Shown: piece after piece, positions 21,237 through 58,203 of the stretch | Layout: each line of letters starts with the position of its first letter | Position numbering within the stretch: position 1 is the first letter of the stretch | From: Parietichytrium sp. I65-24A | Taxonomy: Eukaryota; Sar; Bigyra; Thraustochytrida; Thraustochytriidae | Direction: 5' to 3' | NCBI GenBank assembly: GCA_012862575.1 | Contig: BLSF01000003.1 | Coordinates: forward strand, 62,001-126,000 | DNA: 64,000 bases | Program-made: the position numbers and the translations under genes | Notes under the pieces: model-generated | Told to the model about the DNA's origin: nothing | Database searches by the model: none | What the model saw: only the letters and a program-made list of their open reading frames with translations

Positions 21237-21923
21237 ATGTCCGCACTCGAGCAAGTCCAGGAGAAGACCAAGGTGTACTCCCACCCTGTGGTCAAGCACA
21301 AGATGACCCAGCTCCGCCGCAAGGAGACCTCCAGCAAACACTTTCGCGAGCTGATGAAGGAGATCACAGAGTACCTCGGTTACAAGGCTACCGAGGACTT
21401 GCCGGTCAAGGAGCTCACCGTGTCCACCCCTTTCGCAGAGTTCAAGGGAGCCGAGCTCGACGCTTCCGTTTGCCTCGTGCCAATCATGCGCTCTGGACTC
21501 GGTATGGTGGATGCCATGCTCGACATTGTTCCTCTTGCGCCAGTGTTCCATCTCGGAATCTACCGCGACGTCAACACCCTCAGCCCATATGTGTACTACA
21601 ACAAGCTCCCACAGACCTGCAACGTTAAGCGTGCAATTGTGCTTGAGCCTTTGATCGCTACCGCAGGAACCATCAACGCTGCAGTCGACTTGCTCACCAA
21701 CTGGGGGGTCGAGGAAATCCACGTCATCTCCGTTATCGCCTCCGTCACTGGCCTCCAGGCCCTCTACGAAGCCTACCCAAACGTTGTTGTGCACGTAGCA
21801 GAGATTGACGATAAGCTCAGCGAGGAGGGATACATTCTCCCAGGTCTTGGAGACTCTGGTGAGCGCCTTAACAACATCTCTGCTGGCGCAAACCCAAACA
21901 AGCGCCAGAAGAAGTCTGCTTAA
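21237..21923 (+). CDS. UPRT: Uracil phosphoribosyltransferase
   Basis: 228 aa from ATG 21237 (GCAAGATGTC). Pyrimidine salvage: uracil plus PRPP gives UMP and pyrophosphate in the cytosol. Family landmarks in order: TKVYSHPVVKHKMTQLRRKE and SKHFRELMKEITEYLGYKAT at the N-terminus, the VPIMRSGLGMVDAM segment, the PRPP-binding loop region (VLEPLIATAGTINAAVDLL; most relatives have DPMLATGG here), and the uracil-binding C-terminus GYILPGLGDSGERL. It resembles the short bacterial/eukaryotic UPRT type and is not fused to uridine kinase. The tail NPNKRQKKSA is basic. No intron. The codon choice (many C-ending codons) suggests fairly high expression. Confidence 0.95.
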   Translation: MSALEQVQEKTKVYSHPVVKHKMTQLRRKETSSKHFRELMKEITEYLGYKATEDLPVKELTVSTPFAEFKGAELDASVCLVPIMRSGLGMVDAMLDIVPLAPVFHLGIYRDVNTLSPYVYYNKLPQTCNVKRAIVLEPLIATAGTINAAVDLLTNWGVEEIHVISVIASVTGLQALYEAYPNVVVHVAEIDDKLSEEGYILPGLGDSGERLNNISAGANPNKRQKKSA

Positions 21924-22843
21924 ATCGCGCGCCACGCCTACACTTTTTGTTTCATCAAATCCACCTCTCCTTGCATCATCCCCTCTCTAAAGCTCACCGT
22001 GACCCTCAAACGATAACATACCCAGATAATCGTCGTTCTGTTTGTTTTCTCGAACCACTTTTTTCCAGTTCCAGATCCCAAAGCTTTGTCGCTCGGCTCT
22101 ACTTTCGCATTTGCCACCATTTCTTCTCCGTGCAGCCTCTCAATCACGTACTCTACCCTCTGGAGCGATTGATGCCAACTTCTCGGATTGGCCTCAACAC
22201 TTGGGACCGGCAGAACAGGGAGATATTTACTACTTCACCACTATTGGTACTGACTGTGAGTGCACACAAAGCTGGCTTTTAAAAGCTACTCTGTTAACGA
22301 TGGGTAGTCAATCTGTTTGTGTGCCAAGACGACTCCTGGGTTCCAATGGCGCACCATGCGCACCATACCGGAATCTGGCGTTCACAGTCAGTAAACAAAG
22401 TGAAATGTAAACTCTGTTGTTCTTGGCGCGTCACGGCGTCACTAGCTAGAACCAGATGGTGTATCATGCAAAGTCTTTGTGTCCCGAGGTTTACAATGTT
22501 CGGCATGGATCTCTATCCTGCGGTTGGGATGAATTCCTTTTTCTGCCAGGCACAGCTTCGACGTTCTTTTTTTTCCACTCAGTGCGTGTCAGCAAAGAAA
22601 GCTCAGAAACAAACAGTTTTCATGTCAGCTCTCTGCACACATGGGAAAAGGCAGCGGCCCTCGTCGTCGGCAACCACGCCCCGTCCCCCGAGCTCCATCC
22701 GTGGACGTCAAATCTGCACAAATGTGCAAGCTCGGGTAGTCCATCTGCTGGAAAAAAAAACTCAAGGCGAACAACGGGCCAACATACTTGGAGGAGAGTA
22801 TTTCTCCGGCAATACTTTAAATAATAAAAACTAACATAGACAA
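21924..22843. other. Convergent intergenic spacer
   Basis: Between the 3' ends of UPRT and the J-protein gene. Short overlapping ORFs only; nothing recognisable on either strand. Confidence 0.55.
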
Positions 22844-26411: not shown

Positions 26412-29400
26412 ATGCGGTGGACCTGCACTGTAGCTGTCGCAGCAGCAGCAGCGGCCCAAGCTCACGCGGAATGTAGCATGTCTCCTACGATTGGAGAGCT
26501 CCCAAGGTTTCCAGACAGAACAGCGGACTTTTCATCAGCAGGGAAACTGTACACTTTGGAAGAGGTTAGTCGCGTTGCAAAGCTGCCGGAATTTGAGGAT
26601 TATCCGGTCGGCTGGGACGCCGATGATACCAATTGCCCATTTGACGACCCTCTTGCTGCGGACTGGCATGACAATGTAACATGGGGAGGGGAGGTGCCGA
26701 GCGTTGGAAGTGATATTGTGCTTCCTGAAAACTCCACAGTAGTGATTTCAAATTGTTCTTTGGAAAGCGGAGTGTACGGCAAGATCACCATCCCACCAAG
26801 TAGCAAGCTCGTGTTCAAGGACGAATCCATCGTGCTGCAGACGACTGGGATTGATGTGCAAGGACAGCTGATCCTTGGAACCACGAGCTGCCGGATTCAT
26901 AGTGACATCACCATCACATTACACGGTGCGCGTACCACAGAGAGCACGCCTTTTGTGTACAAAGGAATAGCTGCGACCGGGACCGGGACAATTGACATGC
27001 ACGGGAGCTTTTTCGTCGGGTGGAAGAGGCTCGCTCAGACTGCGGCAAAAAACAGTGACATAATCTATCTCCAAGGACATGTGAACTGGCAACCTGGACA
27101 GACAGTAGTCATCACCGGGACGGAGCTGAAGGACGCGAGGGACTGGCACCGCAATGAGATTCGTGTTATTGAAGAGATTTTCGCAAACGACCAGTTCACG
27201 CGGCTCAAGTTCACTGAGCCACTACTCTACACACACTACGGCGGCGAGGAGTACCAAGCTGAAGTGGGACTTCTCTCGCGCAACATCTTGGTGCAAGGAG
27301 ACTCAAGCAGCGAACCGACAGATACAGAGGACTCAGTATGTACGGATGGCGAGGATGACGGTTTCTATTCGAGCTATCCCTGCCCGGACAAATTCTTGAC
27401 TGGATTTGGTGGGCATATCGTAGGCGCTGGTCCAAATGTTCGGCTGAGGATTAGTGGAGTGGAAGCGTTTCGCATGGGGCAGACAAACATCCTTGGCCGC
27501 TACCCGTTTCATTTCCATTTAATGGGCGAGCAAAACTCAGAGTCTTACTTTCGGGACTCCAGCGTACACCACTCTTTCTTCAGATGCTTTACCATGCACG
27601 GGACAAATGGAACCTTGGTAACAAATAACGTGGCATACGACGCGATCGGCCACTGCTATTATCTCGAGGACGGGATAGAGGAACGCAATACTATTTCGTT
27701 CAACCTCGGCGCGCACATTCACTTCCTGGAATATCCGCGCGTGTCGTACACACAGTTTATGGACCCCATCGAGCAACATGAGAGCTTGCGCAATCCCGCC
27801 GACACCACCGCCAGTCCGTTCTATATTACGAACCCGTACAACAGATTCATAGGAAACAGCGCGAGCGGCGGCTACAGTGGGTACGCGTTCCCACGACTGG
27901 ACAAGCCCATCAAGGACTTTCGCACGGCCGCAATTCCTGACGGAATGAATCCTGCCAACCGCCCAACGCTAGAATTTAACGGCAATACATGCCACTCGAG
28001 TGCGTTTTGGTGGAACAGGGCAGGCTGCATCTACGTTGGTGGGTCGCTATATCACGCCAGCGAAGATTCGGACCTCCTGGTGTACAACCCTGGTCGCGAT
28101 AGTCCTTCTCGAGAGACAATGTGTGATGAAGGAACCGAGAAGTGCTCTATGGTGTTCAACAATACAAAGATTTTCCTGTCCGGATGGGGGCTTAACCACT
28201 GTAAGTTTTGTTTTCGCAACTGCATGCCCGCTTACCATTCCTTGTGCTTCGTGGCAACTCACATAGTTTTTATCTTGCGCTGAAATGCAGGGGGAAGGCG
28301 CAGCGAAATTTACAACCTGCAGGTTCACGACACGCAGCGCCCGCTGGGAATTCTTGGATATCACTATGTGAAGAACTTTTTCATTGAGTGCAGAACGTCG
28401 TCTTTTCTACCGGAAATTCCCCAAAGCTCCATGGGTGTGACGACCAAAAAGGTTGAGAGCAGATTCTTTTACCGCCCCTACGTTGGTTTCGAATTTTATG
28501 ACGTGTACCAAGCACACATCCTCGACACTGGCACATTCAAGAACTGTGGCAACAGAGAGCGAGACTCGCCAGTTTGGCGTGCTTTGACGCATTCAGATCG
28601 GTATGTGCCACAATTCATGCAGAGCTCCAAGGAGATCACGTACGAGAACGTCGACGACTCCATGATCCTTGGTGCGACGGTGACAAGCAAGGTGGCTCTT
28701 TCCCGCCTCTTGGCAAACTGGTATGATGCGGACGGATCAGCATTCGGTCGCCCGGGCCCTAGCATCGTCGGAAACGCTGCTTCAAGCAATTGGTGGAAGA
28801 TGGATCCCAACTGTGTGAACGCGACCCTCGGAGACACTGATCTTGATGAAGGCTGGTGGGTATGCGATGCTATCAGCCCTCACTCGAAGAGAGATCGAAG
28901 CGTGGGCTCGTTCTACATGGTCCATAATCAAGAGTATGATGACGAAGTAGATGCGGGCACGCAATGCTCTAATTCGGCCACGTCTGCGCCGTGCGACTCG
29001 ATTGGGTATGTTGCACCATTCGGGCTCTCCGACGCGTCATATCGGCTGCCAATTAAGAAACACTCAGTAATTACGGGTCCGGTGAGCGGTCTAGGTTGGC
29101 TCATGGTCTTTGAAGGAGGGTCTCCGAAGAAGATGACGTTGACGCAGATTCAGCTCAGAGAACAGGATTACATACTTCTCGTATTTCCATATCCCAAAGA
29201 CTCAGCGTTTCACATCCGATACTCTGCTCCGTCGTGGTGCCCAGAGCACTGTGAAATGGACCTCGCACTCGCCACTAGTGCCGCGGAGGTGTATGAAGGT
29301 GCAGGCGACAAGTACTACTTTGATTCTTCGGAAGGGCTGCTGTATGTAAAGTTTATCAACCAGCCTGAAGACCGGGTCGACTTTCTCGGGGATGATGTCG

Positions 29401-29945
29401 ATGTAGATCAATGGGCATATCAACGAGGTTCTCAAATGATTCCTTGGCTGAACTGGAGCTCCAAATTCATAATTGAGGCTACCACTTGCACGATGAATGC
29501 CACGAATGACAACTATTGCGCTTACTCGTACGCCGGAAAACTGACGCAGTCTGGTTGCGGATATTACGGAAGAGGAGTACAGTTCGGGTACGATGAGTGC
29601 ATATCTGTGGACCAAAGTGACGACCAAGTATGCAGTGCAATCTTTGCCGAGGAAGAAGAGTGCGAGTCAGAGCCGTCATGCTGCGAGCTTGCCGGAATGA
29701 AGTGTTATACGCGCAATGCATCTTGGAGCGCTTGCCTGAGTTCCTGCGTGCGCGGGGAAGTTCGGCCTGACGGTTATGCGTGGTCATGTGAAGAGATCCA
29801 ACCTACGACATTCCCCATTGTGTATATTATTGCTGGCGCCGGTGCTTTAGTAGCGATCGGCGTTTTGCTGTCTGCCGGAGTGATTTTGCGAAAGCGAAGG
29901 AATCGCCAAAAAGAGGAGCGACTCACTTCTCCTCTTGAAATTTGA
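26412..29945 (+). CDS. Secreted/type I membrane protein with G8 domain and parallel beta-helix (CEMIP/TMEM2/PKHD1L1-like)
   Basis: Two exons, 26412-28200 and 28291-29945, with a 90-nt GTAAGT...CAG intron. They join in phase to 1147 aa. Residues 1-19 look like a signal peptide (Ala-rich, cleavage near AHA). A G8-type region (W-G-x-x-P then DIVLPENSTVVISNCS..., GKITIPPSSKLVFKDE) is followed by a long right-handed beta-helix with HGTNGTLVTNNVAYDAIGHC and related coils, as in CEMIP, TMEM2 and PKHD1L1. Near the C-terminus is a Cys-rich module (SCCELAGMKCYTRN, WSACLSSC, WSCEE), then one membrane helix (about 1106-1130), a KRR stop-transfer signal and a short tail. Animal relatives act in hyaluronan turnover, but whether this one is an enzyme, and on what polymer, cannot be said. 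Multiple N-glycosylation sequons are present. Confidence 0.9.
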
Positions 29946-38886: not shown

Positions 38887-40379
38887 CAGCCCTTACATGC
38901 GCTTGCCAAGTGTCTGAATTCACACTTTCTTTGCCCGAAGGCACCCTGCGGTCCGAGTCTTGGGCCCCACTGGTCCACCATCTCGAAATGCGAAATGCCG
39001 TTCTCTGTGTCAATGACGCAAAGTCCCACCTCTTTCTAGTCTAGTAATGAGAGCCACTGCACAAACGCGCTGCTCGTTTTCTTCTCCATCCTCGTCGTCA
39101 TCCTCATCCTCATCCTCGTCTTCAAAATGGATAAAACAACAAACGCTCCAGCTTTAGAGCTGGCAACAAGCAAGCACAGGCGAGCGCAGTATCTTTGTCG
39201 GAGCGGTGCGAAAGCTTCGGTGGAAAGCGTTATCGTCTGCTCGATTGTATTGTTATTTCGAACCTCTTCGTCTACTTTCATGTGTATGAGATCCAACTGT
39301 TATTTTCAATCAACATGAGCAAAACTAACAAAACGTTTTTTTTAACAATCCTGTATACCGGAGTAGCTCCTGTTCAATGAAAACGGTCTGGGGCAAAGTG
39401 TTCATGAAAGTAGAGCACAAAGAAAGGAAGAACAAGTGAAAGAGATAAAGTGAAAGTGTAAACCACGCAGAGAACAGCTTGCCTATGAAAAAAGGCACAT
39501 TGTCACGAGGCGAGGAACGGCGCACTCGTTCTGACTGAGTGTGAGTGCTTTACGTTTATGTTCGTTCGAGCTCACGCACAGAGAGAGAGACACTCGCAGC
39601 AGTTGTAGCAGTTGCAGAGGGAAAGTTCCAGTACTTAAAACGAAAGCGGATCTCAAAGACGCCGCGCCAGTAGTACAGTACAAATTGTCGATGTTGTTGC
39701 CAGTGCAGTGCCTGGCACGTGTGCAGCAGACTGTGGAAATCTGAATTCTTCTCCGATCCGAGTTCGTTCTGGCAAAGCATAGCCGAGCACATTGGGCTTG
39801 CCGTCGTCCTTCTGAACACCTCTAAAGGCAGGAGTTGTACAACTGCAAATAAAAGCAAGTGGAGAAACTACGCTGAGGAAGTGGCTCACCGCTCTCTCTC
39901 TATCTCTCTCATTCCCACACAGAAACTCACAGAAACTCCTTCACTCCTTCACTCACTCACTCACGCACGCACACGCATACGAATTCTCTTCCGCACACAC
40001 GAACGAGTCCTCACGACGACGACAACAAAGGAAACAGAGGCAGGAGAAGTCGGTACTCGAGTACATTCTCATTCCTTACTGGCAACAAGTGCACTTGGTT
40101 GCGGACCGCACTGTCTCTGTACATGCCCTCGGCGGCGAGGGGAGGAGCTCTCTGCGCATCGTCGTGACACTTTTGCGCTCGGTTGTGGCGCCGCGCACCA
40201 TCACAGGGGCGAATCAAAGAGTTGAGAGCGGAGCTCAAATCAACAATCGATCGATCAATCCATCCAATCGTTTGTTTCAAAGGGTTTCATCCCGAGTTCT
40301 GTGAAGACTAGGTTGAGCGGTCAATACAACTTGGTCTTGATTTTGACTGGCTCGGCAGAGCGACACCTTTGCCGCGCAA

Positions 40380-43300
40380 ATGTTGGAGATGATGCGGTCA
40401 AGGCGGACCCTGCATGAGCGCAAGGTGAGCGAAATAAGCATTCCCACAAAGTACGAAGGAAACGACGCCAAGCTGCTCAAGGCGAGCGGAAACAGGTCAG
40501 TGGAGACGCTTGAATGGCTAGCAAAGAATTCGTTCGACTATTTCAAGGAGGTGTCGGCTCTTTATGACCTGTGCGTGGAGGATGCGGAGAGTAGGTTCAC
40601 CGAGGCAGGGTCGGGCTTTCCGAAGAACTTCGAGTACCGCTGGACCGAGGACGGAGGGGAGCCGATCTCGGCTCCAGAGTACGTCAACAAGGTTCTGAAC
40701 TGGGTGGAAAGAACTCTTCTGGACCCCCAGACAGTGCCTGTGAACGACAGCTTTCAATTTCCGGACAACTTCTTCGCTGTCGTCAGCAAAATTTTCACGA
40801 GGCTCTTCCGCATATATGCTATCATGTATCACCAGCACGTAGCTGCTCTCGAGTCGCAGGAGGCGTCCGAATACCTGGACAAATCTTTCAAAAATTTCAT
40901 GTTCTTCGTATTCGAAAATGATCTCGTAAGGCAAAAGGAGTTCCGGCCGCTGCAAACACGCGTTGACTCTATCTCCAACGCCTTCCAGAAGGAAGTAGGC
41001 TTCCCTGTGGCGCTGTGGACTGTCGATGATGCTCTCGACGAAATAGATAACACGTTCACTGACGGGTCGTTCCGAACTGCGTCTGGGTCGGTAGTGGCAG
41101 ATCCAATTCTCCAGGAGCTGGTCGGGGACGAGCTGCATCAGTCCGCCTCGCTACATAGCCTCCTACAGCAATTAAGTATTGACACAGCTGAATCGCAATC
41201 ATGCTCTTCCGGGGACTCGCCTTTGCCCGAGAGTCCTGACAGAATAAGAACCTGTTCACCGAGGGCGGAGAAGGGTGTGCCGGGTAAGACGGCTGGCCAT
41301 CGTTTGCATCTGCGAAACCTTTCGTACATGGAAACTGTGCCGTCAACTTTAAACACACTTGGGGTGGAGACTCTGCTTCGACAAGTCGCGCAAGACGAGA
41401 TCGGTCAGCAACACGCAGACGCATGTGTGAACGTGATCAGGGAAATCTTGGCATCCGAAATTGCATTTGGCGACATGATCTGCAAAGTACTGGAGGAGTA
41501 TGTCGTCCCTGCCCAGACCATTGCAATGGTCTCAAGCGATCTCTCCGACAAGATGTTCGTGGATCTCCCTTTGATTCTAGATTTTTCGGAACTTCTCTGC
41601 TCCGAGATGCATCAAGCGGTGGAGAACCTGAGCATTCCCTTCAATGTTGATGACCCCGCCCCCGAGTCTATGTCGTTTGCGATGGGGAAGCCCCGGTCTC
41701 AAACGCTTGAAAGTACGCCACAAAAGCCAGGTCACGGTAGCGGTAGGCGGCGCGGGACAACATCATCCACTTCAGGTGCACTTACACGCAACATCCCATC
41801 TTGCTCCGATGTAGTGCATGCACTCCTTCAAGAAGCCATGCTGCCTAATCTTAGCTTCTTGGCTGAGAACTTTACTAATTTTGTCTCCCACCACTCTGAG
41901 TCTGTAGCTCTCATCGGCTCGACCATGTCCTCTAATCATCTGTTCTCACGACTGGTACAGTCCAAGAACGCCAAACTTAATGTAACGCTTTCCGATCTCC
42001 TCATGCAAATAAGAACGCGCCCTGCCGTCTACTTTCAGCAGATCGTGAAGCTGTGCGGCGTGTTCGAGGAGTATACAAGCTGCGGGAGCTGCTGGCACGG
42101 CGGCGTTGTGTGCAGCGGCTCTAGCAAAGGGCTCTTTGGCTCGCCCCTCCCAAGCTCGCTCAGGACCAAAGGCTGCTGCAAGGATGTTCAACGTTTCGTG
42201 TCCGATACGATCAAACGTGCGTTTTACCACACATCAGCAGTAGACGCGAGAGCCCACTTCAATAAACATCAGCGCCGGGTACAGAAAACTTTCGGAAGAT
42301 TTCCGCTCCATTCTGCCCCTGGAGAGTTTAAATACGCCGGTGTGCTACGTGACAAATGGCAGCCTTGCATACTGCATGTTATGGACAATGGCATTTTGAT
42401 TTCGAACTACAAGAGGGAAAGCAACGCCGTTCGCAGCAAAGAAGGGGTCTTCTCCTCGGCTATCAAAAAGGTCCAAAAGCTCCGAGGCAAGGGGCATCGA
42501 AGGAATGGCTCGGATGCTTCCACCACCTCGGATCCGCATGGCTTGTTAAAGGAGGTGGGAGGCCCCGGATTCACTGCTCCCGAGGGGCTTCCCACAGATA
42601 ACTTTACGAGCGGCATTGTAGAAGCACTTTCAGAACTAGAGGCGGGCTACATCGACCGCGTGCAGGTGGAAGCGTTCTTCCACAAGATCGAAATGACTGC
42701 CCGACAGCGTCGTTCAGCGCGGCTAGAAAATGCATCCGAAGATGATGAGCCGGTCTTCGTATTGAACCTAAACGGCTACGAGAAATCTGGAATCAAAAGG
42801 GTAACCCAGCTACGTATCGCAAGCTTCGACGCTGCCTGCCGACTCTTTCGAATGGCGGCGACCTCAATGCCTCATAATCTGTACGCTTTTCCGCACTTTA
42901 TGGCGTTTCGAACTCTGAGTACTGTGGAACGTTGGACCCTTTCACGATCGGCATACAGCAAAATCTCCAAACTGAGCACTAGCTCAGCCTTCCCGGCTTC
43001 TCCGCCCAACCTATTTATTTGTCACAATCCTGCAAAGGATTTTGAAGATGCCCTGGACATTTACCGAGACTTAAAGGAGCGCTCTTTCCAGCCGTGGATG
43101 GAGCAAATGGCGCACACCCCGAGCCTCGTTGTTGAAGCGCTTGAAAGTTGCAAGGCAGTCATCCTAGTTCTCACTCCAGGGGTCCTTATGCTTCCATCAG
43201 TGCGATTCCAGTTGGCTACGGCTTGGCAGCTGTGCAAACCTGTCTTGTTGCTGATGTTGGAATCGGTGCCAATCAATGTCTCGCAAGAGATGGACCGATG

Positions 43301-43535
43301 CCCTCCAATTCTTGCTGGATTCTTGGAAATGGCCGTACGAACACTCCCGGAAGACGAGGAAGCTCGGAGTTCCTTCTGGGGCTCGCTGATTTCTCTCCCA
43401 GAGCTTAGCGTGTTTGCTGGTGCCAACCAGTTGCGGCGCTACCAAAACCGCACTTCTGCGACCCCGATAACGAAGAAGAGTTCGAAGAGATGGTCTATCG
43501 GGGTACCGGGTTCCAGTCGGCGGGGAAGTGTCTGA
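40380..43535 (+). CDS. MOB - RhoGEF (DH) - PH - TIR multidomain protein
   Basis: Single-exon 1051-aa protein from ATG 40380. Residues about 35-205 form a MOB domain (TLEWLAKNSFDYFKEVSALY, FEYRWTEDGGEPISAPEYVN, FQFPDNFFAVVSKIFTRLFR, YLDKSFKNFMFFVFE). Of the four zinc ligands known in MOB1 (C79, C84, H161, H166) only the first Cys and last His appear kept. About 338-633 is DH-like (CVNVIREILASEIAFGDMIC, then LTLSDLLMQI-like core helix). About 647-840 is a PH domain with a basic insertion (FKYAGVLRDKWQPCILHVMD). About 876-1018 is TIR-like (LFICHNPAKDFEDALDIYRD, CKAVILVLTPGVLMLPSVRF). The Glu used by TIR NADases aligns with a Gln (VRFQLATAW), so enzymatic activity is doubtful. MOB proteins couple NDR/LATS-type kinases and DH-PH activates Rho GTPases, so a signalling scaffold at membranes is a reasonable inference. 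I know of no protein with this architecture. Confidence 0.9.
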   Translation: MLEMMRSRRTLHERKVSEISIPTKYEGNDAKLLKASGNRSVETLEWLAKNSFDYFKEVSALYDLCVEDAESRFTEAGSGFPKNFEYRWTEDGGEPISAPEYVNKVLNWVERTLLDPQTVPVNDSFQFPDNFFAVVSKIFTRLFRIYAIMYHQHVAALESQEASEYLDKSFKNFMFFVFENDLVRQKEFRPLQTRVDSISNAFQKEVGFPVALWTVDDALDEIDNTFTDGSFRTASGSVVADPILQELVGDELHQSASLHSLLQQLSIDTAESQSCSSGDSPLPESPDRIRTCSPRAEKGVPGKTAGHRLHLRNLSYMETVPSTLNTLGVETLLRQVAQDEIGQQHADACVNVIREILASEIAFGDMICKVLEEYVVPAQTIAMVSSDLSDKMFVDLPLILDFSELLCSEMHQAVENLSIPFNVDDPAPESMSFAMGKPRSQTLESTPQKPGHGSGRRRGTTSSTSGALTRNIPSCSDVVHALLQEAMLPNLSFLAENFTNFVSHHSESVALIGSTMSSNHLFSRLVQSKNAKLNVTLSDLLMQIRTRPAVYFQQIVKLCGVFEEYTSCGSCWHGGVVCSGSSKGLFGSPLPSSLRTKGCCKDVQRFVSDTIKRAFYHTSAVDARAHFNKHQRRVQKTFGRFPLHSAPGEFKYAGVLRDKWQPCILHVMDNGILISNYKRESNAVRSKEGVFSSAIKKVQKLRGKGHRRNGSDASTTSDPHGLLKEVGGPGFTAPEGLPTDNFTSGIVEALSELEAGYIDRVQVEAFFHKIEMTARQRRSARLENASEDDEPVFVLNLNGYEKSGIKRVTQLRIASFDAACRLFRMAATSMPHNLYAFPHFMAFRTLSTVERWTLSRSAYSKISKLSTSSAFPASPPNLFICHNPAKDFEDALDIYRDLKERSFQPWMEQMAHTPSLVVEALESCKAVILVLTPGVLMLPSVRFQLATAWQLCKPVLLLMLESVPINVSQEMDRCPPILAGFLEMAVRTLPEDEEARSSFWGSLISLPELSVFAGANQLRRYQNRTSATPITKKSSKRWSIGVPGSSRRGSV

Positions 43536-44646
43536 GCGTTTAGTGCTGTTGAAGCGCTTCCCCGTTCGTGTATATATTCGTAGCTCTCTCTTCGGCCCCA
43601 AGTGCGACTTCGTTGGGCGCCTCATCTTGTTTGTATTTCACGCCTTCCATCATCTCCTGTACCCGATACCGGCACCGAATTCCGGGAAGGCTTATAGCAT
43701 TTTTATACTACAACTTTGTAAACACGCAAAAATTTTTGATTCGCCCTTTTTTGTTTGGGTTTTCGCGGCTGTCGTTGTGGAGATCATTATTTTTTTCGGG
43801 CTGTTGCCCTTCGCGATTCGGGAGCGAAAGCTGCAGCCCTTGCGACTCGGCAGCTGGAGTATTCAAGGGTGCGTGGTCTGATCGGAGCATCTTCAGCCTT
43901 CGTGTCGGCTTCGCGCCTTGTCGCATCATGCAACTCGAGCTCGTGCGCCGTCTTCTTCGCTCCGATTTCGATCATCGTCAAGCATTGAAACCATGGCAAA
44001 CCATTGCAATTGCAAACCATTGCAATCTCGTCTTCGCTAGCAATGCGGATCAATGCGGCAATCGGAGACATTCGCAAACTCGCCCTAATTAGACTCCAGC
44101 GACGCATAGCCAGCGCTTAGTTTCTGGATACGTGGATCCATGCATATCCATGCACGCACACTCCATCCGCGCTATGTCGACCTACTCGCGACGCTAGCTA
44201 GGTCGTCCTGGAGAGAGAGCGAGAGAGAGCTGGGTTGGGTCGGGTTTGCCAGGATAATGTGCCATTTGGACATTTGGACATTTGGATATTTTCGTTTTCA
44301 CTGTCAATCAAGATCTTGATTCACATTCACATGTCAATCAAAAATCTTGATTGATCAATTGATCAAGACAAAGAACAAGAAGAGAAGATTTTCTAGGGGG
44401 CTAAAGTGCTCATTGAATGTGGAAGTAACAATTTATGTGAAAGCGGAAGTGAAGGAGATTGAAGGAGAATGGATCTTGGCCGAAAGTCAGTCTTATCTCA
44501 GTATCTTGTTGAGATGGAGAGAGAGTGAGGGCAGCAGACCCCGAACGAGGTTGGGACTTGGGCAAAGGAGGAACGAGCGAGGAACGAACGAGGACAACAC
44601 AGAGGCAGAGGCAGGGCTGAGGATCGAGGAGTTGGCGAGCGCGAAA
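43536..44646. other. Intergenic region with short inverted and tandem repeats
   Basis: Contains AAACCATTGCAATTGCAAAC-type repeats (about 43997-44026), a GAGAGAGAGC run (44212-44230), an ACATTTGG tandem repeat (about 44262-44290) and alternating TCAATCA / TCTTGATT / GATCAATTGATC motifs (44307-44370). The urocanase frame is open back to 44347 without ATG in good context. Confidence 0.6.
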
Positions 44647-46820
44647 ATGTCTTTGGAGACGCTGAAACGGGGGTTGCAGCTGGACCCGATGCCAGAGCAC
44701 CCTGGTTTGTCGGATCAAGTGCCGCACGCGCCAGTGCGCACGCCGAACTTGAGCAGCGCCGAGAAGAAGATGGCGATCAAGAATGCACTGAGGTACTTTC
44801 CAGTACAGCTTCACAAGCAGCTAGCGCCAGAATTTGCAGAGGAGCTGGAAAAGTATGGCCACATTTACATGTACCGCTTCCGTCCGACCGAGTACGAGAT
44901 GAAGGCGTACCCAATCGAATCGTACCCTGCAAGCTGCAAGGCTGCGGCGGCAATTCAGCTGATGATCATGAACAATCTGGATCCTAAAGTCGCTCAATTC
45001 CCTCATGAGCTCGTAACGTACGGAGGGAACGGGAGCGTCTTCCAAAATTGGGCTCAGTATCACTTGACCATGAAGTACCTCAGTGATCTGACGGAGGAGC
45101 AGACTCTCTCCATGTATTCTGGTCATCCGATGGGTCTGTTTCCAAGCCACAAGGACGCCCCTCGAGTGGTCATTACGAATGGTATGATGGTCCCGAACTT
45201 TTCAACCACCGAAATGTACAATAAGATGTATGCACAAGGAAACACAATGTACGGACAAATGACCGCCGGGTCCTACTGTTACATCGGGCCACAGGGAATC
45301 GGTAAGTGACAGCGCTTTGATTTGACCTTGAAGAGAGCAGGATGAAAGCTTACGAGAAGCCTCGACCTTGGGTTGCGTTTTGGGACTCATTTCCAGTGCA
45401 CGGAACTACGATCACGATTTTGAACGCGGGGCGAAAGTATTTGGGCTCTGGAAATCTTCAGGGAAAAGTCTACGTCTCCAGTGGACTCGGAGGCATGTCA
45501 GGGGCACAAGGAAAGGCTTCTGACATTTCCGGCGTGATTGGCGTCATCGCGGAAGTGGACGAATCTGCCCTCATGAAGCGTTACAAGCAAGGGTGGATTC
45601 AACAAGTAGCAAAGACTCCACAGGAGTGCATCGATATTATTCAAAAGCTCCGCTCGGAGGCGTCTGAGAGCACCAGCGGAACCAGCGTCGGCTTTTTGGG
45701 AAATATCGTGAGTTTGTGGGAAGCACTTGCAGATCACGTTGAAAAGTCCGGTGAGCTCATCGTGGAACTAGGTAGCGACCAAACTTCGCTGCACAATCCT
45801 TACAACGGAGGCTATTACCCAGTCGGCTTGGACAGCGTTCAAGAAGCCCAAGCAATGATGCGCTCAGACCCAGAAAAATTCAAGGAGCTTGTTCACGAGT
45901 CTCTGCGGAGACATGTGGACGCGGTCAATCGCATGGTCGCAAAAGGGATGTACTTTTGGGATTACGGCAACAGCTTCTTGTATCAGTCCAGCGTTGCAAA
46001 AGCGGACATTTTGAAGCAGAACCCAGCTTCCGATCTGGACTTTCGCTATCCCTCTTACTTTGAGGACATCATGGGTGACATCTTCTCGCTAGGTTTCGGT
46101 CCATTCCGCTGGGTATGTACGTCGCTCAAACCAGAAGATCTGGAGAAGACGGATAAGATTGCTGAGGAGGTCATGAGAGCTCGCATCGAAGAGCTTGAAA
46201 AGCTCCCGGACGCATGTGCGGAGCTGGAGAAGGTTAAAGAGCAACTTCGAGATAACTCGCAGTGGATTCGGGAAGCCGGAAAAAACAAGCTTGTGGTCGG
46301 TTCCCAAGCTCGCATCCTGTATTCTGACTGCGTTGGCAGGACCAGAATTGCGCTGGCATTCAATGACGCGATTCGCAAAGGGGAGCTTGCGGGGCCAGTG
46401 GTGCTGAGCAGAGATCATCACGATGTCTCCGGAACCGACAGCCCATTTCGTGAAACGAGCAACATCTCCATGGACTTGGGGGACAACTCCATGTTTTGCG
46501 CAGACATGGCCACCCAGAACGCTATCGGACTCGGAATTCGCGGCAGCACCTGGATCTCGCTTCACAATGGTGGCGGTACTGGATGGGGCAATGCTACAAA
46601 TGGTGGCTTTGGGCACGTCCTCGATGGGTCTGAAGATGCGGCACGCAAGGCGAAGGCATTCTTGTTTTGGGATGTCAACAACGGTGTTGCCCGCAGATCT
46701 TGGGGCCGGAATGCCTGCGCAGAATATGCGGCAAAAGAGGCCATGCAGAGCGAGCCACGTCTGCAACTCACCACCCCAAGCCATGTCGACGAGAGCCTTC
46801 TGGACAGTTTGAACTGCTAG
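44647..46820 (+). CDS. UROC1: Urocanate hydratase (urocanase)
   Basis: Exon 1 runs 44647-45301 and exon 2 45397-46820, with a 95-nt GTAAGT...CAG intron that restores YIGPQGI-VHGTTIT. 692 aa, close to the animal enzyme's length. It converts urocanate to imidazolonepropionate in histidine degradation and uses NAD+ as electrophile. Diagnostic blocks: NALRYFPVQLHKQLAPEFAE, TYGGNGSVFQNWAQYHLTMK, MYSGHPMGLFPSHKDAPRVV, GLGGMSGAQGKA, then GSQARILYSDCVGRTRIALA, GPVVLSRDHHDVSGTDSPFR and WISLHNGGGTGWGNATNGGF. The catalytic-region glycines and RDHHD are intact. It implies that this organism can use histidine as a carbon/nitrogen source; the other hut genes are not in the window. Confidence 0.96.
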
Positions 46821-49091: not shown

Positions 49092-50240
49092 CTACTCAAA
49101 GTCATTTGGCGGGGGCATGCGATTCATGCTAGGGTGATACATTTGGCGATGAAGGTGGGGATGGTGCAGATGCTGCTGCTGGGCTTGGTGGCTGCCGTCG
49201 TCTACATCAGCATCTTGGCTATGCGACCCGATTTGAGGGTGACTGCTGACATGTTGGAAATAAGTGTTGACGTGATGCCTGTCGCTATGTATGCCAAGTT
49301 CCCTCGCCTGTATCTGAGGATTATGTTCTGACTCGAGAGCGGATTCGTGCTCCAAAATAGCCGGCCAATCGCCCTGGCCAAGACCGCCTGTAGGAGAAGT
49401 GGACGCGAGCCCAGAGCTGGAAGGCTCTTCATAAAGGTGACTGCTCAGCTCCATCGAAACGAGGGCGTTTTGCGAGGATAGCTTGGCTTCGGACATGCGC
49501 TTCGACTTTAGTTTGTCGAATTCCTTGAGTTTCTCAGGTTCTATGAGTTCACGAAGCATTTTGTTTTCTAAGCGCAGATTTGCGTTTTGGCGTTCCTCAT
49601 ATCTGAGCTGGTCATTGAGTTCTTCCACGCCCTTTTTCCTCCTGGGATTTATTTCAACGCACATATCAGGAGCATGGTCTACACAAAATTTGAGCTTGGA
49701 CTCAACGTTGACCAGGGTTGCTTTGGTGGTACAGCCACTGAAATAACAGTTGCGCTTCGTCAGGTTCATGGCCCCCGGCATTTTGTGCTGCACGCACCAG
49801 AGCCTCTGTTGACCAGGAAACCCAAAAGTGGGCTGCTTGGCGCAACCCTCAATCGCGCATTGCTTTGCACTTCGGAGAAAGGCACCTTGAGGTCTGCGTA
49901 CGGGAGTTGACAGTGAAGAAAAAAGCGAGGCAAAATTCGAAGAAAATGTCAGGTGCGAGAGTCCGCATAGATATTGGAACGGAACTAAAATTTTCCAAAC
50001 TTACTTGTGTAATACGCACCACCTCTTGCGCCCCCCCTGCTCTAGCGTAAAGGACGCGTATTTTGTGCAACCGGGCTCCTCGCAATAACAAGCTTGAAAA
50101 GATTTGGCTTCTGCCGACCGGTGCTCGGCGCACCACCTGTATCGTTTCGCTTCATCGCCAAACGAAGGGCGCTTTCTACAGGTCGGGACCTCACAGAAAG
50201 CACCGCGCTTCGCCTTGCGCGACCCGCCCTCGCCTTCCAT
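49092..50240 (-). CDS. EsV-1-7-type cysteine/histidine repeat protein
   Basis: Exon 1 runs 50240-50005 and exon 2 49893-49092, with a 111-nt GTAAGT...CAG intron; 345 aa (a second in-frame acceptor, GAAG, lies 24 nt further in). Four repeats of C-x4-C-x15/16-C-x2-H: C16-C21-C37-H40, C53-C58-C75-H78, C91-C96-C112-H115 and C128-C133-C149-H152, with a conserved W/F before the third Cys. This is the pattern of EsV-1-7 repeats, known from stramenopile proteins such as the brown-algal developmental regulator IMMEDIATE UPRIGHT and from large algal viruses, and presumed to bind metal. A charged coiled-coil follows (RQNANLRLENKMLRELIEPE and on), then a Ser/Gly-rich and a His/Gln-rich C-terminus. Molecular role unknown; a host gene by its intron. 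Confidence 0.85.
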
Positions 50241-52740
50241 AACTCAGTTTACGGAGCTCACTTTTCTAGTCAGTGAGCCAAAATCTATGCAGGGCAAGAA
50301 AGGATCTATGATAAGCTCGAAGACGCTTGACAACGATTGCATGAATACCCAACCGAAATGTCAAGATCTCTTTCGACTTGGTAATCTCAGAGTGCGAAGA
50401 GGGCCCTTGCCCGCGCGACAGTAAACAAAATTCCGAGGGTAGAGCGCGCTCAGCTCAGGACACAGGCTTCAGGTACCCCTTTTAATCACCGCAACACACG
50501 ATTGCGGTATGCTTTCCTTCCTTCTTGTCCCAATGGACCCCGCCTCCCAGCACCTTCGCGATTGAGATTTGGTGACAACAGAAGCAGGAGAGCCCTCAAG
50601 ACAAGTCCCAAAAACAGTTCTCTCCAGACAGAAAGGTGTCTCTGCGCACCGTTTTGGGCAATAGCAGTTGCCGGCGACACTCGGTTAGAGCCAGCAGAGT
50701 CCAAGCGCCCAAAGTGGAAGCCACACGTTTGCCACAGAAGTTCCGGGTTCCAAAGAATGCAAAGGGTGTGAATAAGCGGATGCGAGGACGGCGGTCAAGT
50801 TGAAAGGGCGCCTAAGGGCCAATCGGAATCTACCGTGCCCAGCCCAACGCAAGGCACACGATGGGGGCGATCAGTGATCACTGATGGGNCTACGACACAA
50901 GGACTCACAATACAATTTCCAGCTCCTCCTTCAACTTCTTTCCCCCTGCTCCTATCCCTACTCTCTCCTCTAGGGCCGCTAAGAAGCGGTAAGGACACAA
51001 ATAGTATATAATCCGAGTATCGGGACTAGGAGAGTGACGAGTCTTGAACGCATGAGGAGAGTGAGGAGAAGGCAGAATGGGCTAGCGTAGCTTCCGAGTT
51101 GTGTGTTGGAGCTGTGAATCAGCATAATCTTGTCTTCTGAGCTGTCAGATGCCAAGACTACCAGCTAGCTACACAAAGGGCATAAAAGTACTGTAGTACT
51201 GAGTGAGCAAAGTTTTGTTAAATTTCAAAAAGAAGTCACTATTATTAGAATTTAGAAGTTAGACAAAGTCTGGATAGACAATCGTTTGCGCCTGATGCGA
51301 AAGGTTGAAGTTGCCCGTTCATCACTTGATCACCATGGATCACCATGGTCGCTTGTCAGCGGTTCGCTCTTTGAGGCCGTCTGAACAGCTTCGTTCATTC
51401 CTATTCTTAACAGTGAATCAAAACCGGAGACATGTGTCGGAAGGGAACGTTGAAAGGAAACGTGCCACAACACATCACTTGCTTTTCCTACCTACCAACG
51501 TCCATTTCAGTCTGTATTGGACTGGACCCCCCAGTGAGCAATGCGCAAAGTGATGTGGCTCAGCAGCGCCGGTCCCGGGAGCTTTACGCGCAGTCATTGC
51601 AGCTGTAAGTTGGCTTTCGCCGTCGTTGAGATCGCTTGGTGAAAAACGGCGGACACTACTGGTGTGGGATTCGCGAAGTCCACAAAGCGAAGCAAAGTTC
51701 GCCTCAAGAGATGTGCAAAAATGCGCGCCGCGCGTAAAAGCCTCAAAACGGCGATCCACTTTGAGCGCACTGGACTGGTGCTGGGACGGCAGTTTCCCCG
51801 TAAGCGGTCGCCCGTGGCCTTGCGACCCTTGCGATGCGCTTTAACTGGTTTTGGAGCTTCCCCAACTGCTGGAGACGTTTCAGTCACACTCCACTGGCAG
51901 GACAAACTGAGGTCCAAGCACCTGGCGGATTTGCGGGAAAAGCTTTATCGAAAGGTTGGCAAACACAGGATCCGAAACCCCGAAAGTCACGCTGAAGAAG
52001 GTCACGAAATCTCGCACTGCAATCGCTGACCAGCGTAAGATGCCGCCAGTTTTCGAAGCGCTGCAGCGAGTACTATTTCTGCACAGAGACGCATCTGCTT
52101 TAGTTTGCTGCATAAGGGCCAGTCCCAGTGACATCCAGAGCCGGAGAGAAAAGTATCGCACTGAATTCTGTAAGAAGAAGGAGAAGAAGAAAGCTAAGAG
52201 CGCTCGACTCATCGCGAACGTCGATGGATGTCGGTGGCTTACGATAGCCTGCAAGTTGCTCACTCAGAGTCAGTCCAGATTGGAAGAGAGCGAAGTCCGG
52301 AGTCTTTGAGCGTCTGGAAATTTGAGTCAAGTTGCAGTACAATGCAGCAGGTGAGAAGCGAGCTGGGTTGGATCTGATTCTGATGAAAGCCAAATCGTGG
52401 CGCACAACACGCAAAGGTATGACCACTCCTACTCGGAAGGAGATTAAACCACACAATTCTCATCACTAGCTTTCTTGCGGTTCCTTTTCGCCGCCAAGTT
52501 CGCGTTCCAGGCTGTGCCCATACAGCCCACGTTGTCGATGCTTACTTGTGTTGCGCATAGTTTGTGATTTTGTTCATTTTTAGAAGTAAAAAGACGGACG
52601 CTGCCGCTATTTTTGAAGGCGGCATTTTTCTGCTCTGTTCATCCTTCTGGTGCGCAACAGCGCCTTGCTTGCTTGTTTCTTTCCACGTGACGAAGCACAG
52701 CCTATTCTCACTCCCCGGTCTCGGATTCGTTTTCGTATTT

Positions 52741-52780
52741 TCTTTCTTTTTCTTTCTTTCTTTCTTTCTTTCTTTCTCAA
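52741..52780. repeat. (CTTT)n microsatellite
   Basis: About ten CTTT/TTTC units. Confidence 0.85.
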
Positions 52781-55685
52781 AACCAGCACTTGTTCTTTCG
52801 CCTTCGTAGAGTCGTGAAATGCAGTCCCTCAGCTCATCGCTCCTCATGTTCGGTGCGACCACACAGTAGACCACCTCCTTTCCTTCCTCGCTGACAGCAA
52901 GCCAATCTACCAGTCCGCGAGATCGCGCAGAAGTGAGGAGGCGTTTGGTACTTAATATTCCCACTTGCCGTTCAACCTTTTTTCTTCTTTATTGAAGGAC
53001 GTTGAGTTGTTGTCACTGTGAGTCAATTTTTGGAGACGAGAGACAAGAGCCCCTAGCCGTGGTTCGCGCGGTAATAGCAGCTGTTGCTTATTGCTGCCCA
53101 GATGGCATACGGGCGCGCGCTGTAATGGATTGGACATGAACTGTTTCACATGGTGAATACTCTCGCTTCGCTGCCATGGCTAATTTAGGCGAAGCGGGAA
53201 GGAATGAAAGAAGGAAGGAAGGAAGGAAGGGTGTGACCAGGTTCTAACGCGAGAGACGGGGTGTTACAGCTCCAACAGAGCTTTGCCGTCAGTCAAACAG
53301 AAAGCCCAAGAGATTCCAAGAGGCAGGCTGTTCCCGGTGCATTGGCACGGCCTTTTCAAATTATATTATAGGTTTCGAGGTGTTTTGCTCAAAGCAAAAC
53401 AGAAGGTCAGGCGACGGTTGGCCAACTCTTAACGCCTAATGACTCTCCTCTGGTGGGAAAGAGGAAAAAGAAGAACGAAAGCGGGAAAGGGGAAGGAGCG
53501 GAGAGGAAATTAGTGTTAGAGGATGTGTATATGTCTTACGAATTTACGATAGGTACAGGTTCGGCTTTCCTCTTGCTTCTTCCTGACTGATTTGTGGATA
53601 TTGAAGAAAATCTATTTGGAAAGAATTAGTGCGGGGGTCTATTCAGGCATAGAGACTCCCAGAATCACTCGAAAATTTGTTCAACACTTGTTCGGACCCG
53701 AGTCTGGTAACTTCCCGAGGGACCATCGGGACTTTTAATACACAATGTGACAGGCAATGCATGCAGATTTCATTTTTTTCTAACGTCTTCACACGCGCAC
53801 TCGCGCATTCCCGAGCGTACACCAACTGCTGTGACCAACGAAATCGAAGAACACAAAGTGGTGCTCGAGGCCGCCATCGTTAGTGCTGGTTCCGATATTC
53901 AAGAGTCTCAAGAGCTTTCCTTTTTCTTTGCGGTATGTGTTTGCGCGATGAAGAGGAGGCGCCTTTCCCCGGAGTTAGGCGCGTTTACAACATTTGCTGT
54001 GCCCCGAAGCAAGGAGCAAACTCTCTTCACAGCTCAGCTTTTCCATCAAGGCGGGTTTTGGCTCGCCCGTAGTCTCCTGATTTATTTCTGCAACGAATGT
54101 ATCTTCAAACGAAATTAATTCGGTGCAACTGTTGACAAAATCGAAACGAGTATCCTGGAGAACTCTACCCGCACCCATGTGCTGGTTTGCAACTCCGACT
54201 CCTGAACGTTTGCAATGAGCGTACACAGGCTGGTTTCAGATATCACTTCAGAATTGGAGGCACAAAGTGAGAGGAAAATTAGGTTCTGTTGCCCGTGCAG
54301 CGAAAGATGAATCGCGACGCTGTCAGTTGGCACACCTTGACCCGTGGATAATCAGTCCTTTTTGTGAAGGTATGTTGCGTGATATTTCAGCCAGCTCGTT
54401 GTTGAGTGTCATTCCCGGACCTAAAAATTGAAGGAAGGCCGTTGCATGATCCCCGAAGTCAGTTGTGCATCTTACTTCCTCGGGCATCCTCCAAGACGAA
54501 CCAGCCTGAGAAAGTAGGCTTTAACGCCTCTGAAGCTTGTACTTTGTTCTGGGAAACAGACCCAAAGCGGCGAGGTTTTCGCTCGAAGCAAACAATGAGT
54601 GGTCAACCTTCAGCTCAAGCTCGTGCCAAGCCGGCCGCATAAAAACCATACGTCGCTCTGACCCTGAAGAATTAATTCAAACCTAAGGTAGCATCCAACA
54701 GCAAGGTGGCAAAGGAGCCTTCTCGGCAATCATCGTTCGGTGAAAGAAATAGAACACAACTTCCTCCAACTTCGTGGAAACAGCGCGGCCATGACTATGA
54801 GACTCTATTCCCCTTGCGTTGACGTACTCACCGATCTCTGTAGGATGTCCGAAAGAGAGTCGCAAAAAATTTGTTGATTACTGCATTGTCGGCATCCTTG
54901 CGGATCGCAACTGTGTACCCCGCATCTGAGAGAGCAGATATTCGTTTCCTATAATGCTGAAAATAATGAAATGCTTGCTGGAGCTCAGCTTCGGCAAGCT
55001 AGCGCTTGCAATGGTTCAGGTTGCGGCGGTAGGAGCTCGGGGAATCCCCTTTCCCGAATTTGCAAATTCGCTAACCTCTCGGTCATTGGTGTGAGTCATG
55101 CTCATCAAGCTCTTCGTCACGTTGTTCCGGAGACACAGAGACAAATCGAGAACAGAATTTCCCGCAAGGAGAACTGTGGAGCCACCCCCCGGGCCTCCGG
55201 ACTTTCGGGCCCCGGCAGTGTCGATCACAGCGAACTACAAATGCAACAAGAAGTATGCTCCTAAGGCTCCCGAATCGAAGTCGGAGCGAAAATTCCAAGG
55301 CTCACTAGCAAGAATTTCCGTACTCGAGACCCAGAATTTGATTATACGCAAACAAAAATCGGTCCCAGCTGCGTCTGATGCTACATGGGGTGGCGTGTCA
55401 TTTACATTCAGTTGTTTTTAGAAAACAAACATTAAAGCAAAAACGTGTCTGTTGATTTTCTTTTCGAAGCACAACGTCGTTTGTGGAGTTTCAAATTTTA
55501 GAACATTAGAACATTGCGAACAAACTGGAAACTCAAATCCGGAATTTACTGACTGTGAGTATGATCTAAAAGTGGGCCGCCGATGGCCCGTGGGGGTGGG
55601 TGGGAATTTGGAGCTTTTACGCTTCACACACTCGTTCCAATTATCTGTGCGTCGGGGCGATTCGCAACTTGCTCCTCCCAGGCCT

Positions 55686-55719
55686 ACTTTCTGTTTGTTT
55701 GTTTGTTTGTTTGTTTGCC
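55686..55719. repeat. (GTTT)n microsatellite
   Basis: Seven to eight TTTG units; related shorter runs at about 5978-6000 and 32043-32074. Confidence 0.85.
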
Positions 55720-57362
55720 CACCACGCCCTCCGAGTGACTGACTGGTCGCGAGCCTAGATAGTCGAACAACTACGAAGTGCCAAGAGTCAGTAAAGTGAA
55801 GTGAGAGCATTCCGAGTGACGAGCTGCCAGGCTGGATAACAATGCCGAGTGGGGGCTTTGAAGGTGCAACAGCACCCCTGGATCCCTGGAGCACTGAATG
55901 CTTCTCGCCTCTCACAGCGATGGTGTGGTGCGGGCCATTGCTGCTTGGAGATGGTCAAGTCCTACAAGAGCCCCAGTGCAGCCCGCGCATTTCCGTACCA
56001 CCCGCACGTCCTGTCGTAAGAAGTCAGAAGACTCACTAAAACGGCCGACGTTGATAGTTTGACGTTTGATTGTCCAAATAAATGCAAAACCACAGCGCGA
56101 CTCAAGAGTGAAAGAATGAATCGTACTTCGGAAACGAAAGCACTTAGCCCCAACCCCGCCTCCCAGTTGTGCGCTTAAATCGTTTTCTTGTCTCCTTCTG
56201 TTGCCCTTCATGGCATCTCGCCCAAGTCCGCAGATATCCACAGAGGAGGCGTGCGTTTTCTTTCACCTTTTTCTTCCTTTACTGCCATCACCGTCTTCAT
56301 GATCATCATGATTATGATGGGTGCATATTTCTTTTTTCTTTTGATAAATAAATCATCTCGTCGAACAATTTTAAAAAAAGCACACGTAAACTTCTCCTGC
56401 AAATAATCACAGCAACTGCTACCTACTGACCAGCTACTAGTTGGAGTAGAGGCGGTAGCACGGAGGGTCTACTCGAAGCAGACTGTGAGCCACTCTGTTC
56501 TGAGAAACGTTTCTTTCTCTCAACTCTCTCTGTCCACTCACCGATGTCACGGATGCTCAGTACTTGCTCAGAGAGTGCTCAGCTATCGCGCTTCTTCCTC
56601 CTCTCAACCGTGCCTTGGCACAAGTTTAATAAAGTAAGTTCAAAAACCCCTCATGACGTACGTCGCGACATCCGATCTATTCTCCCCTTCCAAAACTCTT
56701 CAAGAGCCTTCCCTCCCTCACAAAAAATCATCCTCCGCCTGAAGGGAGATGCTTCTCCTGAAGGTAGGAGTGCTATCGGTATCAGGTAGGCCTCCGATTT
56801 GAAACGCGCTTTCGGGGTCCCTCACAGTAGGTGCTTTCCAGAAATTCCGCTCGTTGTCAGTGCCGTGGGCTACTGGAAACACTGACTAGCTTTTGCTCCC
56901 TTCTCTCTGTCTTACCGGCGTTTTCGAGGGCTATAGTATTGGATAGGTGTCCCATATTCCAAAGCTACCACAATTAAGCAGCGGGAATGCGCGACCATTT
57001 CCCGTAAGTACTATGTTTATACTTTTTACCATAGTCATCTTGGTGTGCATTGCCCTCCTAGTTTTTCAAAAAATGGCTCTACTGAACTGTTAAAGATAGG
57101 AGAAGGAAGAGGAGCAAGGTGTGATAGACGGAAAGAGAAGGAAAGCCCCTCAGAGTTCCAGATTTTCATATATTATCAAGACGATTAGACTGCAAGTAGG
57201 ACCGCGATCGAGTTTGGACTGGTTGGAATAGGACTCCACAGCCCACTACACTGAAGGTCAGCGGGACGGGTCCCGTAAGAGCCGCACGTCGATTGGAAGA
57301 CTTGGACTTGCGGAGAGTTGAATTTGAGGGAGAGCAGAGCGCTCGCAAGCCAACACTTGCCG

Positions 57363-57392
57363 ATGCATATGCAAATGCAAATGCAAATGCAC
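57363..57392. repeat. ATGCAA tandem array
   Basis: ATGCATATGCAAATGCAAAT type, four to five units; same unit as in CIAO1 intron 1. Confidence 0.8.
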
Positions 57393-58203
57393 GTCGGCGC
57401 TAGTACTGAGCAAGGCGCCTGCTTCTTGATAAAAAAAAAGTCATTGGCGCTTCTCCGCTGTCCGCTAGGAGGGAGGATTTATGTAGAGCGTGGTCATAAG
57501 TCCAGGCGTTTGACCAACGCTCCTAAGTCCAAGTGGACTAACTCCCGATCAGTACAGGGTAAGAACACTGTGCTTTGAAGGTGACCGAGGCCCTGCCGGG
57601 ATTCACGGGTTCACTACAGCTAGTAGATGAGCAAGAATGGGCACTTATTCTGGCCAACCAGGATGGAGGAGATCGTGAAGTCACACCCCTAGTAGCGTTA
57701 GTATGTGCCACGTTGGCCACCCCACAGAGATGACCGTCGGCCAGTTCCCGCTCTCTCTCTCGCTTCTTACAAAACTAGACGACCCTCGCGGAGCATTCAC
57801 AATTATTTCTCTTTTTCTTATGCAATGCTCAAAAACAAAACATATAGAATAAGAATATGTATATGTATGAGGTTGCCGTGTGGCCCTCTTGTTCGCTTAC
57901 GTGCGCATCCCACATTCGTACGGTAAGCTCAGTCAGAGAGAACATCAAGCGAGGGCTTTTGTGGCCCTTCATGTACAGTATCTCTCTACCGGTACTGTGT
58001 GGCTCAAGTTTTGAGTTGTATGAAGAGCTTATCTTCCTTTTTCATTATAAATCCTAATATTCTTCAATGTTACAGCCAGTTGGCTGATCTGCGTGCCCCA
58101 AGAGAATTGATGAAATTTGATCAATTCGCACGGCTGCCTCGTTGTCCATGTTGTAGCAAGAGGGCTTTGGAGGGATAACCTAACCTTACCTGTGACAGTA
58201 AAA

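Follow-up and report, generated by a model that had tools for sequence, protein, structure and literature searches.

A MOB domain in one reading frame with DH-like and TIR domains in the thraustochytrid Parietichytrium sp. I65-24A

The window analysed here is a 64,000-nucleotide stretch of DNA from Parietichytrium sp. I65-24A (Eukaryota; Sar; Bigyra; Thraustochytrida; GenBank assembly GCA_012862575.1, contig BLSF01000003.1, positions 62,001 to 126,000 of the forward strand), and at its positions 40380..43535 (+) it contains an open reading frame (ORF) that joins a MOB domain, a DH (RhoGEF)-like region, a putative PH-like segment, and a TIR domain. The ORF starts with the ATG at 40380, in-frame ATGs at 40389 and 40392 being alternatives, ends with the stop codon at 43533-43535, and encodes an uninterrupted protein of 1051 amino acids. 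Across the same interval the other two forward frames (+1 and +2) contain 42 and 39 stops, respectively, so the long open frame is not a matter of chance. A codon model, for which nine Pfam-supported ORFs elsewhere in the window provided the training set, scored the ORF frame above the five other frames in 18 of 20 blocks of 75 codons, the two exceptions being residues 251-325 and 801-875. Synonymous codon usage alone gave z = 6.0 for the whole ORF, with values of 4.0 for MOB, 2.8 and 2.5 for the two parts of DH, and 3.1 for TIR, and only 0.2-1.0 for the linkers, the insertion, the PH parts, and the tail. The ORF is a real gene with a coding signal. A tblastn search of the window with the 1051-residue protein returned the gene itself and otherwise chance-level matches (E ≥ 5). 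Just upstream, the CT- and CACA-rich stretch 39816-40304 (+) is open in the ORF's own frame until a stop at 40302 and has no Pfam match.

The domain architecture in this single reading frame is well supported by sequence comparison. The initial annotation had claimed that one uninterrupted ORF at these positions carries four modules; the ORF is there, with its 1051 codons and coding signal, and MOB, DH, and TIR were recovered by profile search, whereas PH has no profile match. For the whole protein, the Pfam families listed are Mob1_phocein, RhoGEF, and TIR_2 only (cut-offs of 27, 27.6, and 28 bits, respectively; the HMMER filters remove most matches above ~0.1). Segments for separate Pfam runs were picked with knowledge of the claimed domains, and hhalign served as a second, separate profile comparison for TIR and DH, with two control segments each. 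Between MOB and DH lies linker 1 (40992..41384, +; residues 205-335), 62% of which is S/T/P/G/Q/N/K/R/E/D; a Pfam search of 41010-41430 gave no match for this linker.

It is very improbable that the locus is a pair of adjacent genes, one for MOB and one for DH-TIR, whose fusion is only apparent and stems from misassembly or from processing that went unseen. Apparent introns do occur in this genome, as in the urocanase gene at 44347-46820 (+), whose two ORFs have an apparent short intron between them with GTAAGT near 45302; a GTAAG is found at 41284 in linker 1, and the weak codon signal at the two exceptional blocks named above would also suit a division. These points are set against a frame of 1051 codons without a stop and a window whose sole ambiguous base is at 50889, and an in-frame intron inside linker 1 would merely shorten the linker.

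The MOB domain extends over 40500..40991 (+), residues 41-204, as delimited by Pfam Mob1_phocein and the MOB1 chains of the PDB, and on these comparisons its identity is certain. Mob1_phocein (PF03637) matches residues 41-191 in the whole-protein search with 125.7 bits and an E value of 2.4e-36, over the cut-off, and a PDB sequence search returned MOB1 chains with matches reaching residue 199-204 (best E 4.3e-27), which bears out the Hippo/NDR adaptor fold claimed in the initial annotation. Identity to MOB1A is 56 of 156 aligned residues. E45, W46, and D53 are conserved at the positions of MOB1 E55, W56, and D63, which we take to be part of the kinase-binding surface. The phosphate pocket of MOB1 is described as K153, R154, and R157 (PMC4917820), and two of these three residues are kept, as R141 and R144. 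The profile score, the identity, and the pocket are thus shared with the MOB1 family, unlike the length (1051 residues vs 210-240), the fusion to other domains, and the loss of three of four zinc ligands. Mobs are characterised as generally single-domain proteins in a review (PMC7096357).

The DH (RhoGEF) domain is assigned to 41397..42299 (+), residues ~340-640 with an estimated C-terminal limit, and includes a polar insertion at 41670-41804 (+; residues 431-475). The Pfam RhoGEF match spans profile positions 1-144 of 180 and, in the cut-out segment, reaches 28.0 bits, over the 27.6 cut-off. The comparison set consisted of the DH sequences of Tiam1, collybistin, and P-Rex1, all taken from solved structures. 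E355 (41442..41444, +) is aligned with Tiam1 E1047 of DH helix 1 in both alignments, S359-E360 is likewise conserved in both, and N628 (42261..42263, +) falls opposite Tiam1 N1232 in only one alignment, where an HxNxxQ pattern is common to both proteins. Tiam1 E1047, K1195, and N1232 are contact residues with functional weight in DH. The likeness to Dbl-family Rho GEFs (DH-PH proteins such as the three above) therefore consists of the profile match, the helix-1 glutamate, and, in one of two alignments, the HxNxxQ end of the DH domain; the protein differs from them in a third conserved region that is not clearly recognisable, in its polar insertions, and in an unconfirmed PH domain.

The putative and unconfirmed PH-like segment, at 42300..42884 (+; residues 641-835), is placed by its position after DH and is split by an insertion at 42465-42746 (+; residues 696-789). 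A PDB sequence search with this segment gave one chance-level match (E 0.095), and a low-confidence AlphaFold2 model of it contains strands and a helix. The two single-sequence AlphaFold2 models have mean pLDDT values of 42.4 and 36.6, which is low confidence, and neither counts here as fold evidence. A PH domain at this place is a conjecture from position and from the low-confidence strand pattern. DH had earlier been named as the weakest call; that place belongs to PH, which lacks a profile match even without its insertion.

The TIR domain is assigned to 42996..43424 (+), residues ~873-1015, also with an estimated C-terminal limit. Its cut-out segment matches TIR_2 with 29.0 bits, over the cut-off of 28, and hhalign gave a probability of 96.0% (E 4.7e-9, 87 columns), the two window control segments standing at 0.1% and 0.2%; both comparisons support the TIR claim. 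The alignment used, from which the window was excluded, comprises seven related sequences (a Candidatus Chlorohelix plasmid record and six Anaerolineae contigs) and three PDB chain pieces, with identities to the first sequence, that of Candidatus Chlorohelix, of 51-72% for the relatives and ~30% for the PDB pieces. Two of the five PDB alignments printed were omitted, namely 8g83, whose letters equal those of 7uwg over the stretch, and 7qqk, a TIR_SAVED protein. A PDB sequence search with the TIR segment gave three chance-level matches to retroviral capsid proteins (E 0.88 to 2). Compared with plasmids, the segment had one weak match (E 1), in a record that bears a TIR_2 domain at the matching place.

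At the position assigned to the catalytic glutamate of TIR domains, by the match to a PDB chain annotated as an NADase (AbTIR) and by known TIR motifs, all ten comparison sequences, of which seven are closely related, have Glu, and the window protein has Gln (Q944; 43209..43211, +). About six residues are missing behind the conserved Trp. According to the literature, TIR NADase activity depends on a conserved glutamate (PMC10937652, PMC8635717), mutation of this Glu in SARM1 abolishes NAD+ cleavage (PMC8635717), and TIR domains act through self-association (PMC8635717). Because Q944 replaces the NADase Glu, the window TIR is predicted to be non-enzymatic; it is probably a scaffold rather than an NADase, and its role is likely to be assembly, which fits the earlier wording of TIR-type oligomerisation. 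The profile match is its likeness to TIRs of the TIR_2 kind (bacterial TIRs and metazoan TIR-STING), from which it differs in the Gln, in the shorter stretch after the Trp, and in its place behind a GEF-like region. The scaffold TIRs MyD88 and MAL are likened to it by role, not by sequence comparison. The presence of a TIR domain by hhalign and the self-association of TIRs (PMC8635717) would also suit a cell-death or immune sensor that has an active TIR, or one assembling in response to a trigger, with MOB and DH as its regulatory input and cytoskeletal output, but Gln stands in place of the catalytic Glu and no LRR, NB-ARC, or ARM is among the Pfam matches, and such a sensor is improbable.

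The NDR/LATS kinase consensus is given as HxRxx[ST], a pattern that is by the same account generally insufficient for identifying substrates (PMC4428629). The protein contains three matches, all with Ser: S17 in the N-terminal extension (40413..40430, +; residues 12-17), S315 in linker 1 (41307..41324, +; residues 310-315), and S711 in the PH insertion (42495..42512, +; residues 706-711). Three sites in 1051 residues compare with a shuffle mean of 0.275 (P ~0.002, post hoc) and with four in the 7976 residues of 18 other window ORFs (Fisher P 0.04, post hoc). All three lie outside domain limits that were set by the authors and cover 63% of the protein, for which the chance is ~0.05. As a signal of kinase sites, this enrichment is suggestive only.

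MOB-like, DH-like, and TIR domains stand together in the sequence of one reading frame; from this we infer kinase binding, phosphorylation, nucleotide exchange, and assembly. Our tentative preference, held with a little less than even confidence, is for one multidomain scaffold in which an NDR/LATS-type kinase docked on MOB phosphorylates the adjoining Rho exchange factor in cis and a non-catalytic TIR clusters the complexes. An NDR/LATS-family kinase would dock on the MOB domain and phosphorylate S17, S315, and S711 outside the folded domains, and phosphorylation at these HxRxxS sites would control the adjoining DH module, whose exchange substrate would be a Rho/Rac-type GTPase. Without its catalytic glutamate, the TIR would not cleave NAD+; it would self-associate and cluster the complex, and actin, polarity, or division would come under local control as a result. 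A functional kinase-GEF link exists in trans: in fission yeast, the NDR kinase Orb6 is reported to phosphorylate the Cdc42 GEF Gef1 in vitro (PMC6367570). The Orb6-Mob2/Gef1 system resembles the window protein in tying a MOB-NDR kinase to a Cdc42 GEF (PMC6367570), and differs in that its link is made in trans by phosphorylation (PMC6367570), whereas here a single chain holds MOB and DH together with an added TIR. The more specific proposal, that the built-in MOB docks an NDR/LATS kinase on the very Rho GEF that this kinase phosphorylates, with the sites in cis, while a catalytically dead TIR gathers the complexes, so that one chain combines a Hippo-type kinase module with a Rho switch and with TIR assembly, is doubtful.

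Several observations count against this multidomain scaffold with a working exchange factor. In the whole-protein Pfam search, both the RhoGEF match (residues 352-551, 25.6 bits, E 1.6e-5) and the TIR_2 match (residues 879-961, 26.0 bits, E 1.4e-5) fell just below their cut-offs, with E values of about 1.5e-5. With the three DH sequences, hhalign gave a probability of 29.8% (E 5.6e-4), and the 60 columns that it aligned are all at the N-terminal end; the place of this weak match agrees with that of the Pfam match, and two control segments from the window stood at 0.05% and 0.13%. A PDB sequence search with the DH segment gave no match. The claim of a DH domain is supported by Pfam, where the cut-out segment passes the cut-off, and only weakly by hhalign. 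Tiam1 K1195 and N1232 correspond to K557 and Q635 in one alignment and to R595 and N628 in the other, and K1195 corresponds to V550 in a gap-free reading by eye; since the two alignment runs disagree there, the alignment is unreliable over the second half of DH. Pfam found no PH domain in three segments, nor in a version with the insertion removed and its flanking halves spliced together, and that part of the earlier claim is unconfirmed. The TIR in the single-sequence AlphaFold2 model is all-helical at low confidence. In the MOB domain, T140 takes the place of phosphate-pocket K153, and the HxRxxS count was spotted during reading, its P values being uncorrected. The docking motif [YF]xFP has two matches (shuffle mean 0.225, P 0.02), and at the rate of neighbouring ORFs (four in 7976 residues) ~0.5 would be expected. 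One match is within the MOB fold and the other, YAFP, is without the K/R found to be required at position 2 (PMC4428629), and for these reasons the motif is given no weight.

The zinc site of MOB and the third conserved region of DH bear, in addition, on a protein that is purely a scaffold, with a MOB that binds a kinase and degenerate DH-like and TIR-like parts that provide only protein contacts or assembly and no exchange activity. The four ligands of MOB1, C79, C84, H161, and H166 (PMC4917820, PMC2684140), correspond to A69, T74, I148, and H153 (40584..40838, +), so one of four is kept and three are lost. Segment 538-560, taken as the third conserved region, has no counterpart to the P-x-Q-(R/K)...K-Y-P run present in Tiam1, collybistin, and P-Rex1, and a stretch rich in Cys, Gly, and Ser comes after it; the predicted exchange activity of DH may be lost. 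The replaced TIR Glu and the unrecognised PH point the same way. This reading is opposed by E355 and S359-E360, conserved in both alignments, by N628 in one of the two, and by a RhoGEF match that covers positions 1-144 of 180. Mob proteins with an incomplete zinc site are also reported from fungi (PMC2684140), and because of this exception the loss of the site is no bar to membership of the MOB family. On balance, a scaffold devoid of exchange activity is rather unlikely, and the scaffold with a kinase-controlled exchange module is retained as the tentative preference.

The surrounding window is eukaryotic by content, with genes for urocanase, Sec1, RAI1, ribosomal S24e, WD40, OTU, and a CaMK-like kinase. 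No tRNA genes were found in the window, and Rfam gave no match above the gathering score. An 865-residue ORF at 38-2635 (+) contains TPR repeats and three cyclic-nucleotide-binding stretches. Long open frames lie on both strands over the uracil phosphoribosyltransferase gene at 21147-21935, with a Pfam match on the + strand only. Two adjoining ORFs occupy 26412-29945 (+). The first has G8 and a CEMIP beta-helix; in the second, CEMIP domain X is accompanied by a TNF-receptor-like match that narrowly misses the cut-off. Two EsV-1-7 cysteine-rich stretches (57.8 bits) are encoded at 49095-50000 (-), followed by a TSC22 match below the cut-off; the EsV-1-7 motif is characteristic of stramenopiles and some other algae, and its presence would suit a stramenopile-like protist. 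The window is gene-dense except for ~8 kb at 50000-58200, which is almost without coding signal (best core score 12.1).

Relatives of the protein were sought with a few short peptide patterns or tblastn in collections mostly of prokaryotes and viruses. There was no match in viral contigs or phages, and none of 21 pattern matches in genome contigs was confirmed; the MOB family was matched in 0 of 14 control genomes, which makes that collection uninformative about MOB. Searches of the open-licence literature gave no MOB-GEF or MOB-TIR fusion in the titles and beginnings of abstracts that were listed. The protein may represent known domains in a new combination. The extent to which NDR kinases act through Rho-family GEFs is described as contested in fission yeast (PMC6367570). 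If the proposed scaffold is real, this natural fusion would be evolutionary evidence that MOB-NDR and Rho-GEF act together in at least one lineage. It would also place a non-catalytic TIR in an unusual setting, and docking, phosphorylation, and exchange could be measured together on a single chain.

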